This document shows positions 7,682 through 29,208 of a DNA stretch of 30,202 bases, piece after piece. Source of the stretch: a virus. Every line of letters begins with the position of its first letter. The first letter of the stretch is position 1. A program made the translations under genes and the position numbers. The notes beneath the pieces were generated by a model that did not search any database, was not told the DNA's origin, and saw only the letters and a list, made by a program, of their open reading frames with translations. The DNA lies in the IMG/VR virus record IMGVR_UViG_3300036859_000598, positions 1 to 30,202 of that record, one strand, 5' to 3'.

Positions 7682-9598
7682 CTACTGCGGCCGCTCGCGC
7701 GGCTGGAAGCTGGGCGCGCCTACGCGGCGGCCGGTGAAGTTGAACATCGCATCCGTATACCCGGAGGTGAAGGAGTCGAGGGCCTCCTCGAGCACCTTGC
7801 CCGTGCCCGCCTTCCACTCGAGCGGATCCTCTGGGAGGAGCGGCTCCATCACCTCAACGGTACCCTTGTCGAGAGCGCCTGTTTGCTCCAGGTTCTTGAT
7901 TGACAGGAGGGCTTGAGATCGGAGGGCGCGCCCGGTGCGCACGGCCGTGCGATTGAACGTCTCGGGCCCATAGGAGTCCCGAAGTTTGATCATTTTCTGG
8001 AGCAGGCCCGAGATCTTCTCATACCCCGTCTTGAGTTCCCTGCCCTTCTTGGCAGAGTCATCATCGAGGGCCTCGCCTATGCCCGGAATCAACCGCTTGC
8101 GTTGCTCGGGAGTGAGCGTGGCCGGATCTGCCTCGGGCCCGGCCAAGGCCAGACCAGAGGCCTTCTGTCGGGCCTTGAGGGCCTCGGTGGCGATCTGCGT
8201 CCTTCGGAGTTCAAGCTCCTGGCGCTTCAACGCGAGATCGCCCGCCTTCTGTCGGAAGTCCATGAGGGCGTTTTGAAGCTCGAGATCGAGCTTGGCCCTC
8301 ATCTCCACGCCGCGCTGCTTGGCCTCATCTCCTTGGGCATGGGCGAGGAGGATCTCGTTTCGTCCTTTGGCGAGGTTGATCGCGGCCACCTCGGCGGCGG
8401 CATCCGCCACGCGCTCATCCTGAAACCTCTGGCGCATGTAGGCGGTGAGCGTCTGTTCATTCCGGAGGGTGCCCTCGGCGGACGCAGTCTTTCGATCGAG
8501 ATCCTCGCGCTGCAGGGCCAGATCGTTGCGGATGGCCTCCATCACATAGTCAGGCCCCCCGCCAAAGCCCGAGAGGAAGGCGGAGATCCCCGCGAGCACC
8601 TTTTGGCCCGAGCTCCTCGACTTCCACCACCGATCGGGATCGATCTTCTCCTTGGAGACGCGCTCGAGCTCATCCATCCGGGAGCGGAGCTTTGCCTCCT
8701 GTGTCTCAGCCCCCTTCTTACGGATCTCCTCTTTCTGGAGCCGCTCAGCCTCCCGGGCTTCCGCCGCCTTGATCTCCTCCGTCTTTCGCGCCTCCTCGGC
8801 CGCCGCCTGGGTCGCCTCGAGGGAAGCGCGCGCGGCCGCGGCCTCCTGCAGCTTGTCGAAAGCCTGGGAGATCTTCTTTTCGCCAGCAGACGGCGCGGCG
8901 GGCTTGAATGAGGGGACACCCCCAGAACCGCCCTCGCCAGGCGCGCCCGGCACAGCTGCCCCAGCTGGGACGGCTGCAGGAGCCGCGAGGGATGGAATGG
9001 CGGCATCCTCCACGGTGAGAGGCCGTTGGCTCGGGGTGGCGGGCTTCTCCTCTCCTTGCTTGAGCGCCTCGGAGAGGGGCTTAAGTCCGAGGCGCTTGTT
9101 ACGATCGGCCTCGAGCGCAGCCGCGCGATCCCGGGCCTCCTGGCTGAAGGGCGGGGCCCAGTCCTGGAAGTGGCCTTTGATCTTGTCGAGGATCGAGGGC
9201 GCCTCCTTGGGCGTGGGTTTGCCCGTGTATTGCTCGAGCGCCTCCTCGGCGCGCGCCTGCATGAGAACGGACCGGGCCACCGGATCCGGTTCGTGCCGAT
9301 AGTCGGGATCGTTCGTAGAGAGCCGGTAGCCCTCCTGGGTGAGCTGAGTGAGGGCCTCGGGAGGAACGATGCCGCGGGAGATGGCCTCGGGCGCGCCGTC
9401 CTCTCCCAGCTGGATACGGATCTGCTCCATCTTGCCATCCGCTCGAGGGCGGAGAATCTTTCGATCCCTCTCGGGAGGCAGTGGGGCAGGCGGCTCGAGG
9501 CCTGTGGGCAGGACGGCCGAGCGAATGGGAGCCCCGCCGCCCTCGGGCTCGATGAGCCACCCTCCCGCGCTATCCTTTCCCAGAACGCGCGGCATCAC
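7682..9598 (-). CDS. Internal virion protein candidate, coiled coil
   Basis: A 638-residue protein. The N-terminal ~200 residues are Pro-rich and charged; a Pro/Ala/Gly linker is near 205-245. From about 250 to 320 there is an almost uninterrupted Ala/Glu/Arg/Lys helix, followed near 338-360 by an apolar segment (SSGQKVLAGISAFLSGFGGG) that could contact a membrane. A second long helical region covers about 370-500. The pattern and position between two other large, helical proteins suggest a component of the ejected protein set. The start is a GTG/ATG pair overlapping the previous stop; the stop lies 8 bp before the ATG of the 972-residue gene. No catalytic motif is evident. Confidence 0.6.
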   Translation of the reverse strand: MMPRVLGKDSAGGWLIEPEGGGAPIRSAVLPTGLEPPAPLPPERDRKILRPRADGKMEQIRIQLGEDGAPEAISRGIVPPEALTQLTQEGYRLSTNDPDYRHEPDPVARSVLMQARAEEALEQYTGKPTPKEAPSILDKIKGHFQDWAPPFSQEARDRAAALEADRNKRLGLKPLSEALKQGEEKPATPSQRPLTVEDAAIPSLAAPAAVPAGAAVPGAPGEGGSGGVPSFKPAAPSAGEKKISQAFDKLQEAAAARASLEATQAAAEEARKTEEIKAAEAREAERLQKEEIRKKGAETQEAKLRSRMDELERVSKEKIDPDRWWKSRSSGQKVLAGISAFLSGFGGGPDYVMEAIRNDLALQREDLDRKTASAEGTLRNEQTLTAYMRQRFQDERVADAAAEVAAINLAKGRNEILLAHAQGDEAKQRGVEMRAKLDLELQNALMDFRQKAGDLALKRQELELRRTQIATEALKARQKASGLALAGPEADPATLTPEQRKRLIPGIGEALDDDSAKKGRELKTGYEKISGLLQKMIKLRDSYGPETFNRTAVRTGRALRSQALLSIKNLEQTGALDKGTVEVMEPLLPEDPLEWKAGTGKVLEEALDSFTSGYTDAMFNFTGRRVGAPSFQPRERPQ

Positions 9599-10470
9599 CC
9601 ACCCCCGCCAGCTGCAGGGCCCGCCGCGCCCGTGCCGGCCGCCTGAGCTCCCGCGCGCGCCAGATCCTTCACGAACCCCACCCGCCGCCCGGCCGCACTG
9701 TCATAGGCGCCCGCCTGGATCGCGTTGATCTGGATGTTCTGATCGGTGAGGAGCTTCTCGAGGTCCATGGCCGCCTGTTGCTGCGCCAGGGCCAGGGAAT
9801 AGCCTTGGGAGAGATAATACTGCACGGCCTGATCGTTGAGGGCCCTCTGGGCCTGCTCACTCTGCAGGTTGGCAAGGTTCGCCTGCTGAGAGAGCCCGGC
9901 CTGCTCCGAGGCGAGGGCGATGTCCTGGCCGCGCGCGCCTCCAGCCACCTGCCCCAGGAGATTCGCGGCCGATTGCTGCTCCTGCAGCGCGAGGGCGGCG
10001 GAGTCCGCCGCGGCGCCCTGCATGATCTCGGAGCGTTGGTTTTGTACCTCTCGGAGGGCTCCCGCGCTCCCCGGGCCTCGCACCCCCGCCGCGATGGCCA
10101 GGGCGTTCTGAGCGCTCCTGTCCGCCGCGCGTTGCAGCTGAGCACCCGCCACGGTGGGCCCCTGGCCCGAAGCCTGGCGGGCGAGGCTCGAGACAAGGCC
10201 ACCTTGCGCGGCGCGGAACTCATCCTGTGGCCCCGTGGCGATCGTGGCTCCCGTGGTGGTGGCCGCCCCTCGGTCGCCCGAGTTCACCGCGCCTTGCTGG
10301 AACGTCTGGCGCATCCGCTCGGCCTCGGGGATCCGGGCCGCCCCCCGGTTCACGTCATAGGGATCGGCCTGATACTGGCCCGTGCCAAAGAAGCCCGGAT
10401 CCTTGCCCGTTCCAAAGAGCTTGCCTCCCACGTACCGCCCGCCATCTGCCAGCGTATCGAGAAAGCCCAC
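9595..10470 (-). CDS. Ala/Gln-rich internal virion protein candidate
   Basis: A 291-residue protein starting at a GTG with GAGGTGAGCA just before it. The first ~50 residues include GGRYVGGKLFGTGKDPGFFGTG. The rest is an Ala/Gln/Ser-rich helix bundle (residues 80-260, with QQSAANLLGQVAGGA and LALAQQQAAMDLEKLL), ending in a Gly/Ala tail. Such composition is typical of the smallest ejection protein or pilot-like proteins in short-tailed phages. It is the first gene after the tail nozzle and overlaps the next gene by four bases. Confidence 0.55.
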   Translation of the reverse strand: MGFLDTLADGGRYVGGKLFGTGKDPGFFGTGQYQADPYDVNRGAARIPEAERMRQTFQQGAVNSGDRGAATTTGATIATGPQDEFRAAQGGLVSSLARQASGQGPTVAGAQLQRAADRSAQNALAIAAGVRGPGSAGALREVQNQRSEIMQGAAADSAALALQEQQSAANLLGQVAGGARGQDIALASEQAGLSQQANLANLQSEQAQRALNDQAVQYYLSQGYSLALAQQQAAMDLEKLLTDQNIQINAIQAGAYDSAAGRRVGFVKDLARAGAQAAGTGAAGPAAGGGG

Positions 10471-14376: not shown

Positions 14377-15059
14377 TCAGGGCGGCTCGAGCGGCGCGGC
14401 GTGGCACTACGGTAGAGGACATCTTGCACGCGATCGGGCTCACCCTGATCCCGCTCACTGGCCGCCTCGAGGATCTGGGCATCGAGCACCGTGAGGCGCC
14501 GCTGGAGCGCGTCCGTGGGCCGCTCCTCCTTGTCCACGCACTTGATCGCGGCCTCGAGGACGGCGCGCTCCTCCCACCCGTGGGGGAACTCGCACGTGTC
14601 ACTTGGAGCTGTGAGATAGGTGAAGGACGGGACATAGAGGATCTCCGCTGTCACCGCCTGGCCGGGCTTGGGTCTGAGCTCGAGCGTCCTCAGGCCCTTC
14701 AACCGGTAGCGGACATCCTCTGGGGACGAGGAGAACTCCTCGGCGTTCCTGAGCCGGGCGCGGTCCTTCTGGGTGAACTTGCCCATCGGGAGCCACTTCC
14801 CGCTTGAGGAGTAGACATCGATCCCCAGGAGCTTGAGGAAGTCCGAGGGCAGGGCGTAGGTCTCCACGCCCTGGGGAAAGGTGGCCTCGAGCACCGTCTC
14901 GGCATAGTCCTCAAACAGGCCGATCAGCTTCTCATGAAGATCGGACAGAGCCCGGTTCAACCACTCATCCAGCCGATCGGTGGGAACAAAGTCGCTCCCC
15001 GTCTGATCGGCTGCATGAAGGGCGCGGGCCCTGAGCGTGGTGAGGGAGACGGCGGGCAT
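14373..15059 (-). CDS. Head-tail adaptor (T7 gp11 / P22 gp4 type)
   Basis: A 228-residue protein with the characteristics of podoviral adaptors that form a ring beneath the portal. The N-terminus is helical and contains FVPTDRLDEWLNRALSDLHE. Then come FPQGVETYALPSDFLKLLGI and, later, the beta-strand/loop TLELRPKPGQAVTAEILYVP followed by a PHGWEERAVLEAAIKCVDKE helix. This succession (L/N-rich helix, ALPxDF, RPxP, a YVPxF strand, xxAxKC helix) is common to this family. AGGAGTGACCA precedes the ATG. Placed between capsid-side genes and the nozzle, as expected. Confidence 0.75.
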   Translation of the reverse strand: MPAVSLTTLRARALHAADQTGSDFVPTDRLDEWLNRALSDLHEKLIGLFEDYAETVLEATFPQGVETYALPSDFLKLLGIDVYSSSGKWLPMGKFTQKDRARLRNAEEFSSSPEDVRYRLKGLRTLELRPKPGQAVTAEILYVPSFTYLTAPSDTCEFPHGWEERAVLEAAIKCVDKEERPTDALQRRLTVLDAQILEAASERDQGEPDRVQDVLYRSATPRRSSRPE

Positions 15060-24955: not shown

Positions 24956-25303
24956 TCACTTCTCCACGTGGCCGAGGATGCGCTCCCGGATCAGCTCGAG
25001 CGCGCCGAGGAGCAGAACGGGGCGGTAGGCAAGGCGAGTGAAGGTGAGGCCGCCGCCCGTGTATTCCTGGCCCTCGATGTGGTGGATCCCGATGATGGCA
25101 AAGGACTGGAGTTCCCCGCGGCGGGCCCGCTCGAGCATGTCCTCGAGCATCGCCACGCCCTCAGAGCTCGCCTCGAGCACGCCTGGCGCGCGGCCTCCTG
25201 GGATGAGCCGGAAGGGGATACTCAATGGCTGCCCGAGGTTGCCGAACATATGACCGTCAGGCGCCGCTGGCTTCTGTTCCCCATCTCCGGTGTCACCGCT
25301 CAC
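24956..25303 (-). CDS. Hypothetical phage protein
   Basis: A 115-residue protein starting at GTG 25303 with AAGGAGG six bases upstream; the start overlaps the previous gene by 11 bp. Residues about 20-40 are GNLGQPLSIPFRLIPGGRA. The centre is GVAMLEDMLERARRGELQS followed by FAIIGIHHIEG, and the C-terminus is helical (LLLGALELIRERILGHV). The EDMLERAxxGExxxFAIxG pattern occurs in small phage proteins of unknown role. Confidence 0.65.
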   Translation of the reverse strand: MSGDTGDGEQKPAAPDGHMFGNLGQPLSIPFRLIPGGRAPGVLEASSEGVAMLEDMLERARRGELQSFAIIGIHHIEGQEYTGGGLTFTRLAYRPVLLLGALELIRERILGHVEK

Positions 25304-26132
25304 CCTTTGCCTCCTTGGTGGGTTCACTCGCAGTCTTGTCCAGAATCGCGCGCCTGAGAAGCTCCATCCTCTCGGGCGGGAGCTTCTCGAGGCCAGCCGT
25401 GAGCTTCTCGGCGGGGCAGGCGTTGAGGGCTTCCGTCACGAGTTCATCATCTGAGAGCTGATCGGCCCCATCCGCCTTGTTCGCCTCCCGGTCCTCTTTG
25501 GCTAGGGCGGCAAGCGCGGATGCCACCTGCCCCAGGGCTGAGACCATCTCTGAATCCGGCATTGCCCCTGCCGAGACTTGCGCCTCGAGGCGGCCCACGA
25601 TACGCCGGAATAGACGGCCGCACCGATCCACCTGATCGGCCAGAGTGCCACCCTCCTCCTCGGTGGAGATCTGGAGCTCCTCAGGGTCCACCATCTGGTG
25701 AGTAGGCACGGCCTTTCCAAAGCCCCACTCTTTCAGCTGGCGCGACGACTCCTGAACCTCACGCACATTGGGCTTTCTGCGGTGGATGAGGATCCCGTCC
25801 TTGTCCTTGTCCACCCGGCCAACGAAGGTTTCCTCAACCTCGATCCGCCCTTCAACGATCGCGAGGTGCACCTCCCAGAGGGCCTGCCCGTTGCGCGTGG
25901 CTTCCCGAATGGCTCGAGCAAAGCGGGTGCCGGCCAGGCCTCGCCCACCCGGGCAAGGGCTATTGCCCGGCCCTCCTGCAAATGTCCCGTCTTTCTTCCG
26001 TGCTACCTCCGAGCCCTCGGCCACGGGTTTCTCCTGGGGCCCGGTGGCTGGATCGCCTGTACCTGAGAGGCCCCTGATCTCAGGCTTGGGGTGCCGAGAC
26101 CTTCGACGTGTGGGCTTGTCCTGCTCAGGCAT
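25293..26132 (-). CDS. Possible small terminase subunit
   Basis: A 279-residue protein, first gene of the morphogenesis block. The first 70 residues are basic/Pro-rich and contain KKDGTFAGGPGNSPCPGGRG, which resembles the Gly-rich GRFxxGNxGGPGR start of DUF5681/TerS-like phage proteins. A helical segment follows (LAGTRFARAIREATRNGQAL). The rest contains HRRKPNVREVQESSRQLKEW and an extended acidic helix with ALGQVASALAALAKEDREAN. Position at the head of the packaging operon supports TerS, but the protein is longer than usual and no HTH is obvious. The ATG at 26132 is preceded by AAGGAAGGAA. Confidence 0.4.
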   Translation of the reverse strand: MPEQDKPTRRRSRHPKPEIRGLSGTGDPATGPQEKPVAEGSEVARKKDGTFAGGPGNSPCPGGRGLAGTRFARAIREATRNGQALWEVHLAIVEGRIEVEETFVGRVDKDKDGILIHRRKPNVREVQESSRQLKEWGFGKAVPTHQMVDPEELQISTEEEGGTLADQVDRCGRLFRRIVGRLEAQVSAGAMPDSEMVSALGQVASALAALAKEDREANKADGADQLSDDELVTEALNACPAEKLTAGLEKLPPERMELLRRAILDKTASEPTKEAKGER

Positions 26133-26199
26133 GGCGGGAGGTTCCTTCCTTTTCGCGATCCATAGCACGCCAACCGCTCTCTCGCGCTAGGCTTCCTCT

Positions 26200-26298
26200 T
26201 GGCCCGTGGAGTCCGGTGGCCGCGGTGGCGGGTTCGACTCCCGGAAGTCCATCGGCGTGGTGTGAGGGGTTCGATTCCCCTCAGGACTCCATGGGCCA
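26200..26298 (+). ncRNA. tRNA-like structured element with two T-loop hairpins
   Basis: A 15-bp stem, TGGCCCGTGGAGTCC (26200-26214) with GGACTCCATGGGCCA (26284-26298), is complete apart from one G-T wobble. It encloses two hairpins. The right one (26263-26283) is a perfect 7-bp stem TGAGGGG/CCCCTCA with loop TTCGATT and abuts the closing stem directly, as a tRNA T-arm abuts the acceptor stem. The left one (26219-26256) has a CGGG/CCCG tip with loop TTCGACT and imperfect lower pairs (GTGG/CCAT, GCCG/CGGC). Both loops match the TTCRANY T-loop pattern only on the plus strand. No D-arm, proper anticodon arm or CCA end fits, so it is not a normal tRNA. It sits 26 bp before the plus-strand gene at 26325, in a divergent spacer. 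Confidence 0.55.
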
Positions 26299-26324
26299 CC
26301 TGACTCATAACCTCGAGGTCTCAC

Positions 26325-26750
26325 ATGCGTCCTGTTCTCGCCGTTGCCGCGATCCTCTTTCCCTTCCTGGCCCTGGCCGATCCCCCCCAGGATGCCCCGA
26401 TTCAGCACACCGAGCGCACCGTCCTAGTGCCCCCCCTCTATGTCACCTCCGGGGATGCCGCGCCGCGCTTCCCGCCTACTCAGCTGGAATGCCGAGACTG
26501 GGAGAAGCGGGCTCAGGACTGGGGAGCTTTCTCCAGGGTGATGGCAGGCCTCGGGGCCACTTCCACCGCGATCGGCGCGGCGCTCATCGCCTTCACCAAC
26601 CGCAAGAAGCAGGCGGCGGCCGTCTCGGGCCTTGTTCTGGCGCTCTCGGCGGGAGCGGGAGGGTGGGCTCTCTACAATGAGAGCGCCTACTCGAGCCGCT
26701 GGAATGAGCGCTGCACCGTGAACGGAACCGCCCTCTACCCGAGGACGTGA
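26325..26750 (+). CDS. Small exported / membrane protein
   Basis: A 141-residue protein, the only plus-strand gene in the right two thirds. It has an N-terminal signal-like segment (MRPVLAVAAILFPFLALADP) and two apolar segments at about 66-88 (RVMAGLGATSTAIGAALIAF) and 93-115 (AAAVSGLVLALSAGAGGWAL), joined by a short basic turn (TNRKKQ). Two cysteines (about 57 and 129) flank them. GAGGT precedes the ATG by about 6 bp. Its lone orientation and membrane topology would suit a lysis, exclusion or morphogenesis-support role, but no family is recognised. It follows the T-loop element and ends before a terminator. Confidence 0.6.
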   Translation: MRPVLAVAAILFPFLALADPPQDAPIQHTERTVLVPPLYVTSGDAAPRFPPTQLECRDWEKRAQDWGAFSRVMAGLGATSTAIGAALIAFTNRKKQAAAVSGLVLALSAGAGGWALYNESAYSSRWNERCTVNGTALYPRT

Positions 26751-26851: not shown

Positions 26852-26898
26852 GAATAGGCCCGGTCCTCTCGCTCACAGGGGACTGGGCCTTTCTATTC
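26852..26898. terminator. Hairpin terminator between convergent genes
   Basis: AGGCCCGGTCC (26856-26866) pairs with GGACTGGGCCT (26880-26890) along eleven positions with one G-T wobble, followed on the plus strand by TTCTATTC. Outer GAAT/ATTC bases can extend the stem. It lies between the plus-strand gene ending at 26750 and the minus-strand gene whose stop is at 26897. It probably mainly serves the plus-strand transcript, as the minus-side tail is not T-rich. A second small hairpin, GGTATG/CATACC (26802-26818), lies upstream in the same spacer. Confidence 0.6.
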
Positions 26899-28253: not shown

Positions 28254-28633
28254 AGAGTTGCACCAATGGCCTCGAGAAGCTCGAGGGAGCGCTCCACGAT
28301 CTTCCAGCGCCTCTCCGCCTCCTCATCCTTCTCGGCCGAGGAGAGATCGCTCTCGGTGGTGAGCCAATCGAAGTGAACCCGAACCATGCGCGCAAGATCA
28401 GCCACGTGAGGCCCTGGCACAGCTGGGCGAGGATCCGCCCCCCTGTTCCACCCGCGGGCACGCGCGGCCTCAAGGAGCGCCTCCTCCACCGCGCCCGAGC
28501 GGTTCGCCCGGGGAAGCTGCCCGTCCTTCCGAAAGCTCACCAGGAACTCGAGCGCATCCACCCCGGGCTGTGTGAGGGTAAAGCGCGCGTTGGGCTCGGC
28601 CACGGTGCCAGGAGCGGCGTTCTGGTGACTCAC
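28250..28633 (-). CDS. Hypothetical phage protein
   Basis: From the GTG at 28633, which overlaps the FKBP stop as GTGA, this is 127 residues. It contains FTLTQPGVDALEFLVSFRKD, a helical EALLEAARARGWNRG and DLARMVRVHFDWLTTESDL. The C-terminus is a charged helix (EAERRWKIVERSLELLEAIG). The gene is coupled to FKBP upstream and to a helical protein downstream. I do not recognise it. Confidence 0.55.
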   Translation of the reverse strand: MSHQNAAPGTVAEPNARFTLTQPGVDALEFLVSFRKDGQLPRANRSGAVEEALLEAARARGWNRGADPRPAVPGPHVADLARMVRVHFDWLTTESDLSSAEKDEEAERRWKIVERSLELLEAIGATL

Positions 28634-28956
28634 GAGAACCGCTCCCGAAGCTCGAGGCACTCCACTTCAAAGATCACCGTGGCGTTGGGAGGAATGACGG
28701 GGGGCGCGCCGCGCGCGCCATAGGCGTAGCTCGGGGGCAGGGTGATCCGCCGCACCTCCCCGGCCCGGATGCCCACCAAGCCGAGATTCCACCCCTCGAT
28801 CACCTTGTTCTCGCCGAGCCGGAAGGTGAAGCCCTGCCCGCGCGCGCGGCTGTCATCGAACACCGTTCCGCTCTCAAGCTTCCCCACGTAATGCACGGTG
28901 ATCGCCTGGCCGTTCCTGGCTTCCTTGCCTGTCCCCGCCTTGAGCGTCTCTTTCAT
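28630..28956 (-). CDS. FKBP-type peptidyl-prolyl cis-trans isomerase
   Basis: A 108-residue single-domain FKBP, the same size as FKBP12. The catalytic pocket is intact by comparison with FKBP12: Tyr23 (VHYVGKL), Phe33-Asp34 (GTVFDDS), Phe43/Phe45, Val52-Ile53 (KVIEGW), Trp56, Tyr79 (SYAYGARG) and Phe96 (VIFEVECL). It catalyses proline isomerisation and should act in the cytosol, since no signal peptide is present. The ATG at 28956 has GAGGTGCAGC before it; an upstream in-frame start at 29040 would add 28 residues unrelated to FKBP. A phage-encoded FKBP is uncommon; it may help fold a phage protein or act on a host target. Confidence 0.93.
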   Translation of the reverse strand: MKETLKAGTGKEARNGQAITVHYVGKLESGTVFDDSRARGQGFTFRLGENKVIEGWNLGLVGIRAGEVRRITLPPSYAYGARGAPPVIPPNATVIFEVECLELRERFS

Positions 28957-28976
28957 GCTGCACCTCTGGGGTTGGA

Positions 28977-29016
28977 AAGAAAACTCCCGAGATGCGGCCC
29001 CATGCCGCACCCCGGG
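28977..29016 (-). terminator. Hairpin terminator/attenuator before the FKBP gene
   Basis: On the minus strand TGCGGC pairs with GCCGCA (29004-29009 with 28993-28998) across a 5-nt loop. A CCCG/CGGG clamp lies outside (29013-29016 with 28986-28989). It is followed by AGTTTTCTTTCC. It lies after the tRNA gene and only ~20 bp before the FKBP start. It may end the tRNA transcript or attenuate read-through into the FKBP gene. Confidence 0.6.
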
Positions 29017-29097
29017 TGAGACGGGTAAGATCGTCGCCACTCGGCAGAGTAGCCCTACCTTTCTTTGTCTGCCTTGTTGAACTGCACCCGCCTCATA

Positions 29098-29168
29098 CTG
29101 GGGAGCCGGGGATCGAACCCGGGCCTATAGATTCAAAGTCTATCGCTCTACCCTTGAGCCACTCCCCG
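29098..29168 (-). tRNA. tRNA-Gln (UUG)
   Basis: A canonical 71-nt cloverleaf on the minus strand. It has a D-arm GCTC...GAGC, an anticodon stem ATAGA/TCTAT with loop CTTTGAA (anticodon UUG at 29134-29136) and a T-arm CCGGG-TTCGATC-CCCGG. The acceptor has six G-C/A-T pairs, and position 73 is G, as in glutamine tRNAs. The first acceptor pair is C1-A72, a mismatch where Gln tRNAs normally have U1-A72. The CCA end is not encoded. It would read CAA and CAG codons. Confidence 0.9.
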
Positions 29169-29208
29169 AAACCTCGAGGCCGGATTGCCCACCGGCCACC
29201 CTGGGCCC

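Follow-up and report, generated by a model that had tools for sequence, protein, structure and literature searches.

What is the 99-nt element at positions 26200-26298 of the virus record IMGVR_UViG_3300036859_000598, and what might it do for the gene that follows it? The record was analysed over its positions 1 to 30,202, and this whole 30,202-nt stretch is referred to here as the window. The element occupies a divergent intergenic gap, and its 3' end lies 26 nt before the ATG of the gene at 26325-26750. The answer that we tentatively favour, and to which we give somewhat less than an even chance, is that it is a plus-strand structured 5' leader of this isolated, separately terminated gene, one that mimics the acceptor/T-arm stack of a tRNA. 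The element and its surroundings comprise the following features.

25293-26168, minus strand: divergent ORF across the gap; its true start is likely the ATG at 26132, which has a purine-rich stretch upstream.
26200-26214, plus strand: 5' strand of the closing stem; predicted pair probability 0.54 for the outermost pair and at least 0.997 for the other pairs.
26229-26243, plus strand: left T-loop hairpin, with a 4-bp stem (26229-26232/26240-26243) and the loop TTCGACT at 26233-26239; predicted pair probability 0.027.
26263-26283, plus strand: right T-loop hairpin, with a 7-bp stem (26263-26269/26277-26283) and the loop TTCGATT at 26270-26276; predicted pair probability 0.81 for the outermost pair and at least 0.997 for the rest.
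26284-26298, plus strand: 3' strand of the closing stem, pairing with 26200-26214.
26315-26319, plus strand: Shine-Dalgarno-like GAGGT, read from the sequence, 5 nt before the ATG.
26325-26750, plus strand: 141-aa ORF with, as judged by eye, a signal-peptide-like N-terminus and a hydrophobic segment.
26856-26890, plus strand: strong intrinsic-terminator-like hairpin of 14 pairs with a T-rich tail, which ends the plus-strand unit.

The architecture described by the first-pass annotation is present in the sequence. Its 15-bp inverted repeat with one G-T wobble is a closing stem of 15 contiguous pairs, 14 Watson-Crick and one G-U, that encloses 69 nt; its two 7-nt loops of tRNA type, TTCGACT and TTCGATT, both fit the tRNA T-loop consensus G-TTCGANY-C; and the 7-bp stem of the right hairpin, which had been proposed to stack on the closing stem, meets it at its 3' strand with a gap of 0 nt, so that a coaxial stack of 22 bp is possible. 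The left hairpin can alternatively be read as an anticodon arm with the anticodon CGA. The window has just one other T-loop hairpin of at least 4 bp, which serves as T-arm in a genuine tRNA-Gln (29097-29169, minus strand).

This tRNA-Gln is the only tRNA gene of the window and adjoins an FKBP-type prolyl isomerase at 28630-29040 on the minus strand (PF00254, E 7e-33). Across 95 genomes of Myxococcota, the sole phylum compared, the best match of the FKBP is 59%, and the tRNA-Gln has weak matches in 13 of 282 Myxococcota genomes. The hexamer CTCGAG occurs in 128 copies in the window, 12 times the roughly 10 copies that base composition predicts, and the Markov estimate from its 5-mers is 117; this composition ratio is the highest among the checked loci of at least 5 kb.

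As a background for the element we used 100 dinucleotide shuffles of the whole window and counted stems of at least 15 pairs, allowing a single G-U and up to 120 nt in the loop. Such stems appear with a mean of 0.04 per shuffle and are present in 4 of the 100 shuffled windows, and T-arm hairpins of at least 4 bp have a mean of 0.17 per shuffle (0.02 for at least 7 bp), compared with three in the real sequence, two in the element and one in the tRNA-Gln. Given these frequencies, the conjunction of stem and T-arms is not due to chance. The same counts bear on a reading at the level of DNA, in which the inverted repeat binds a protein or serves replication, or else arose recently as a template-switch duplication, and the similarity to T-loops is incidental. 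Its position between divergent genes would suit such a reading, as would the fact that the repeat is single-copy and lineage-specific as far as searched; however, two of these rare hairpins lie inside the repeat and one of them meets the stem exactly, and we consider it quite unlikely.

The predicted fold of 26190-26310 has an MFE of -62.2 kcal/mol and a z of -3.27, equalled by 1 of 200 shuffles, whereas with longer flanks the z weakens to -1.80, 10 of 200 shuffles equal it, and the stretch 5' of the stem is predicted to pair with the Shine-Dalgarno region. The left T-loop hairpin is energetically marginal, with its pair probability of 0.027 under the nearest-neighbour model, which in the form used gives no bonus to T-loops; a constrained fold that contains it lies 2.7 kcal/mol above the MFE and shows an extended left arm capped by the T-loop. 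The prediction of a three-way junction that carries a stacked T-arm is firm, and to describe it as having two T-arms would be to rely on the sequence match of the left loop.

The likeness to tRNA is partial. The search against Rfam that the first-pass annotation had suggested gives no family at cut-off, the sole match at the element being tRNA-Sec (RF01852) with 21.6 bits and an E of 0.049 against a cut-off of 47. Neither ARAGORN at its default threshold nor RF00005 at its gathering score makes a call at the element, and the tRNA-Gln is their only call in the window. The YrlA / Y RNA-like family (RF02553) is absent at E<=10 in 26100-26400, and GOLLD (RF02032) is absent at the element; the positive control for the latter was the viral contig L057, which carries at 9422-9892 on the minus strand (L057:9422-9892) a GOLLD RNA of 198.6 bits with an embedded tRNA match. 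An ordinary tRNA, a tmRNA or a known RNA family is ruled out by the default ARAGORN and Rfam results. A functional tRNA has a 7-bp acceptor, a D-arm with GG in its loop and a 5-bp T-arm in register; the element departs from this layout, with its 7-bp T-arm continuous with the 15-bp stem and no credible D-arm.

The main rival reading is a tRNA-derived relic without present function. It could be what an attachment site, with the 3' end of a host tRNA and perhaps of tRNA-Ala, left behind when the integrase was lost, or else a phage tRNA of the Ser(CGA) class that has decayed. Loosened to a 95% threshold, ARAGORN does report a tRNA-Ser(CGA) at 26200-26290, but its acceptor has mismatches and, as noted above, no D-arm is credible. 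The right arm and its tail match the 3' ends of Myxococcota tRNA-Ala at 27 of 30 positions (90%) with a 2-nt insert. This likeness is equalled by 3 of 60 flank-shuffled controls with a 5-bp core and is weak with a 7-bp core (11 of 60), while the flanks of the left arm are no more tRNA-like than shuffled ones, with 33 of 60 controls scoring as high with the 5-bp core and 30 of 60 with the 7-bp core. From these counts the right arm may stem from the tRNA end of an att site, and the left arm has no such sign; the earlier suggestion that the element is a relic of two tRNA 3' ends is thus not supported for the left hairpin and may hold for the right one. The exact 22-mer made up of the T-loop and the 3' strand of the right arm is absent from the species-genome collection, and an exact 25-mer of the element is absent from the viral contigs, which argues against a relic.

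The relatives of the phage bear on this further. No close relative was found for its terminase, its portal or either of the proteins flanking the element, so the phage is remote; the downstream protein has no relative in viral contigs or phages, and protein and DNA searches for direct homologues gave none, only one 30-nt match with an E of 0.5. A search with the terminase in the 282 Myxococcota genomes led to G094:C39 (hereafter C39), a contig of 36.7 kb whose genes stand in the same order and are about 30% identical, and whose portal is 31% identical to that of the window. A profile search with the portal led to 60 viral contigs, 20 of which extend at least 6.5 kb upstream of the portal match, and the double T-loop element is in none of the 60. 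Three of these relatives, L285, L295 and L300, each carry, some 6.1-6.7 kb upstream of the portal and on the opposite strand, a single T-arm resembling a tRNA 3' end; the element is about 6.2 kb from the portal and on the same relative strand, which favours an attachment-site origin. The three T-arms adjoin integrase sequence, including two full ORFs with PHROG integrase matches, and on C39 a tRNA-Phe-like 3' half is repeated at both ends, as expected of an att site. The flank-shuffled controls equal these four att-like arms in 3 of 60 cases for L285 and L300, just as for the right arm of the element with the 5-bp core, and in 0 of 60 for the other two.

Two observations weigh against the relic. 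The tyrosine integrase domain (PF00589) has 0 matches in the window, whereas all four arm-bearing relatives match it, over the cut-off in L285, L300 and C39 and as a sub-threshold fragment at the contig edge in L295. In addition, the best enclosing stem has 14 Watson-Crick pairs at the element, compared with 6-8 around six other T-arms in the same test (the three att-like arms, with at most 6, the C39 leader described below and two arms of L061). Neither an att-site nor a tRNA-relic origin accounts for the 15-bp stem, and we regard the relic as a real possibility, though a somewhat doubtful one.

The gene downstream of the element has a setting of its own. Its product has no Pfam match at 0.001 and no PHROG below 0.07, and its GC content by codon position is 0.65/0.57/0.80, with a third position as high as in the structural genes of the phage. 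It forms a plus-strand island, with minus-strand ORFs on both sides and a terminator-like hairpin of its own, which is the layout of a moron-type accessory gene. The sequence of the element, its non-chance nature, its position and the terminator-like hairpin are directly supported. A sigma-70-like promoter for the unit of element and gene was searched for and none was found, and the stretch from the stem to the gene contains no terminator-like site. Both of these results speak against a separate small, stable tRNA-like RNA that would act in trans, for example by engaging a host enzyme that binds tRNA. Stable tRNA-like RNAs are known from phages, such as species 1 and 2 of T4, and two loops of T-loop consensus combined with an extended acceptor-like stack would fit such a product; with the ATG at only 26 nt and no conservation in the 60 portal relatives, we find it unlikely.

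The distant relative C39 offers a case that resembles a leader. A non-tRNA T-arm with an 8-bp stem (L246:14571-14593) stands there before a plus-strand gene with its RBS at 14600-14605 and its ATG at 14612, within a predicted multibranch fold (L246:14497-14600) that is closed by 14497-14501/14596-14600 and ends at the RBS. The fold has a z of -2.76, with 2 of 200 shuffles as good; the flanks of the T-arm show no likeness to tRNA, with 42 of 60 controls scoring as well, and Rfam gives no tRNA there at E<=1. The genes downstream of the C39 leader and of the window's element have no common family match. The C39 leader is one parallel case, not conservation.

We also scanned for pairs of T-loop hairpins 10-40 nt apart, which gave at least 120 stretches in viral contigs and at least 120 in genomes. 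Among the matches listed (259 double-T-loop sites), 94 are clear of any default ARAGORN call, and these comprise degenerate tRNAs, duplicated tRNA ends, simple repeats, the GOLLD contig L057 and other elements. An ORF with an RBS lies within 75 nt of 12 of 95 non-tRNA sites (the 94 among the matches listed and the window, whose entry used an ATG inside the stem and not 26325), against a background of 8.2%, so that among the matches listed T-loop pairs are generally not leaders. Closely spaced T-loops are common and are mostly tRNA debris or other RNAs, and a leader placement is not typical of them. The sites in L061, L187, L206, L141, L021 and L035, with closing stems of 7-10 bp, were considered as members of the same class and dropped, because a search over about 100 positions yields stems of this length easily, comparable T-arms elsewhere reach 6-8 pairs, and RBS-bearing ORFs are not enriched among the 95 sites. 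The fold of L061 is no better than shuffles (z 0.19).

Other RNAs with two T-loops came to light. One recurs in the viral contigs L003, L008, L009, L029, L119, L316 and L319-L324, where in each half a GGTGAATATC hairpin, or a variant of it, precedes a T-loop hairpin; in some of the contigs a clamp-loader-like ORF begins about 24 nt after its end, and in others the last T-arm enters a T-tract. A second family (L053, L064, L067, L087, L109, L111 and L237) has in common a CTCGYTGGCCGAG-like hairpin and a GGTGAAAG-like segment between the two T-arms. Rfam gives no match at gathering for L008, L009 and L029 of the first or for L053, L064, L109, L111 and L237 of the second. In a 40-kb viral record, an ARAGORN call of tRNA-Ser(CGA) at L110:310-377 is a compact structure of two T-arms with a 7-bp closing stem, overlapped by a weak, sub-threshold YrlA match (27.5 bits against a cut-off of 69), and ARAGORN may mislabel RNAs of this kind.

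Returning to the leader, a local element controlling the expression or stability of 26325 is the likeliest role, since the structure is too regular for chance and yet common to no relative found. In the mechanism that we propose, the right half, with its 15-bp stem and stacked 7-bp T-arm, would imitate and lengthen the acceptor/T-arm stack of a tRNA, and the second, weaker T-loop arm would sit within the junction. The structure would fold during transcription, close to or at the 5' end of a short mRNA that stops at the terminator at 26856-26890. In vivo it may either protect the 5' end of the mRNA or set a point of trimming, with a putative protein partner and a putative effect on expression. 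The trimming could be done by RNase III on the stack of about 22 bp, or by a tRNA enzyme drawn by the T-arm; RNase III or plain end protection seems preferable to RNase P, because the unbroken 22-bp stack has no end at the normal distance. The Shine-Dalgarno at 26315 would stay outside the stem, 16 nt downstream, and the right T-arm may descend from the tRNA 3' end of an old attachment site.

In favour of this leader are a stem and T-arms far above shuffle expectation, the 14 enclosing Watson-Crick pairs, the location in the gap just before the ATG of a plus-strand island with its own terminator-like hairpin, and the non-tRNA T-arm of C39 in a predicted fold that reaches the RBS. Against it are the 0 of 60 portal relatives (20 with sufficient upstream sequence) and the lack of relatives of the downstream protein, the missing sigma-70-like promoter, the weak left T-loop, the z of -1.80 with flanks and the Shine-Dalgarno region then paired, the count of 12 of 95 among the matches listed, and a C39 gene with no family link. 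What holds of the initial interpretation as a tRNA mimic or a leader is a non-chance, plus-strand, tRNA-like candidate for a three-way junction just before 26325, as indicated by the shuffles and the position; the partners named there, EF-Tu and RNase P, are putative, and a 7-bp acceptor is poorly matched by an uninterrupted stem of 15 bp. The support as a whole comes from a single sequence.

If real, the element would supply a DNA-phage case of tRNA mimicry, whose best-known examples come from RNA viruses and from large non-coding RNAs, and would connect the leader of a single accessory gene with a T-arm stacked on an acceptor-like stem of extended length. It also offers a small system in which to ask whether phage mRNAs are substrates of RNase III and of enzymes that act on T-arms (TruB, TrmA, RNase P). 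By the rules of T-loop recognition, both loops are presumably candidate sites for TruB or TrmA. TruB makes pseudouridine 55 in most tRNAs (PMC11421799). No description of a phage leader of this kind was found in the literature searched (one library, with limited terms).

Among known systems, RNase P uses the tRNA elbow as the point from which it measures along the stack of T-arm and acceptor (PMC4919913). Like the tRNA minihelix and the non-tRNA RNase P substrates tmRNA and 4.5S RNA (PMC4919913), the element would have a T-stem-loop stacked end to end on a helix closed by both of its ends; unlike the minihelix of 5 + 7 bp, it has 7 + 15 bp, no free NCCA end and no D-arm, and it stands before an ORF. 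It resembles class II tRNAs (Ser/Sec) in its size (about 84-99 nt), its T-arm and a short hairpin readable as an anticodon arm (CGA), and differs from them in that its helix register and its D region depart from theirs and that it receives no default ARAGORN or RF00005 call. With the attP-like cores from tRNA 3' ends (L285, L295, L300 and C39) it shares a T-arm and a tRNA-like tail, and with three of them a similar portal distance and strand, whereas the window has no integrase and the three cores tested have no long enclosing stem.

Finally, two interdigitated T-loops in 23S rRNA (the L1 stalk), RNase P RNA and T-box leaders bind the tRNA elbow, according to a review (PMC4810234). The element would likewise bring two T-loops into one compact RNA, although the loops described in the review are interdigitated pentaloops in other contexts, and those of the element are two tRNA-type 7-nt hairpin loops. 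Under a more specific version of the leader, the two loops would dock on each other within the three-way junction into a flat surface that resembles, or binds, the tRNA elbow and would place the gene under the control of a tRNA or of a tRNA-binding host protein, outside the T-box class; we judge this arrangement highly improbable. The review expects further interdigitated double T-loop RNAs to be found (PMC4810234).
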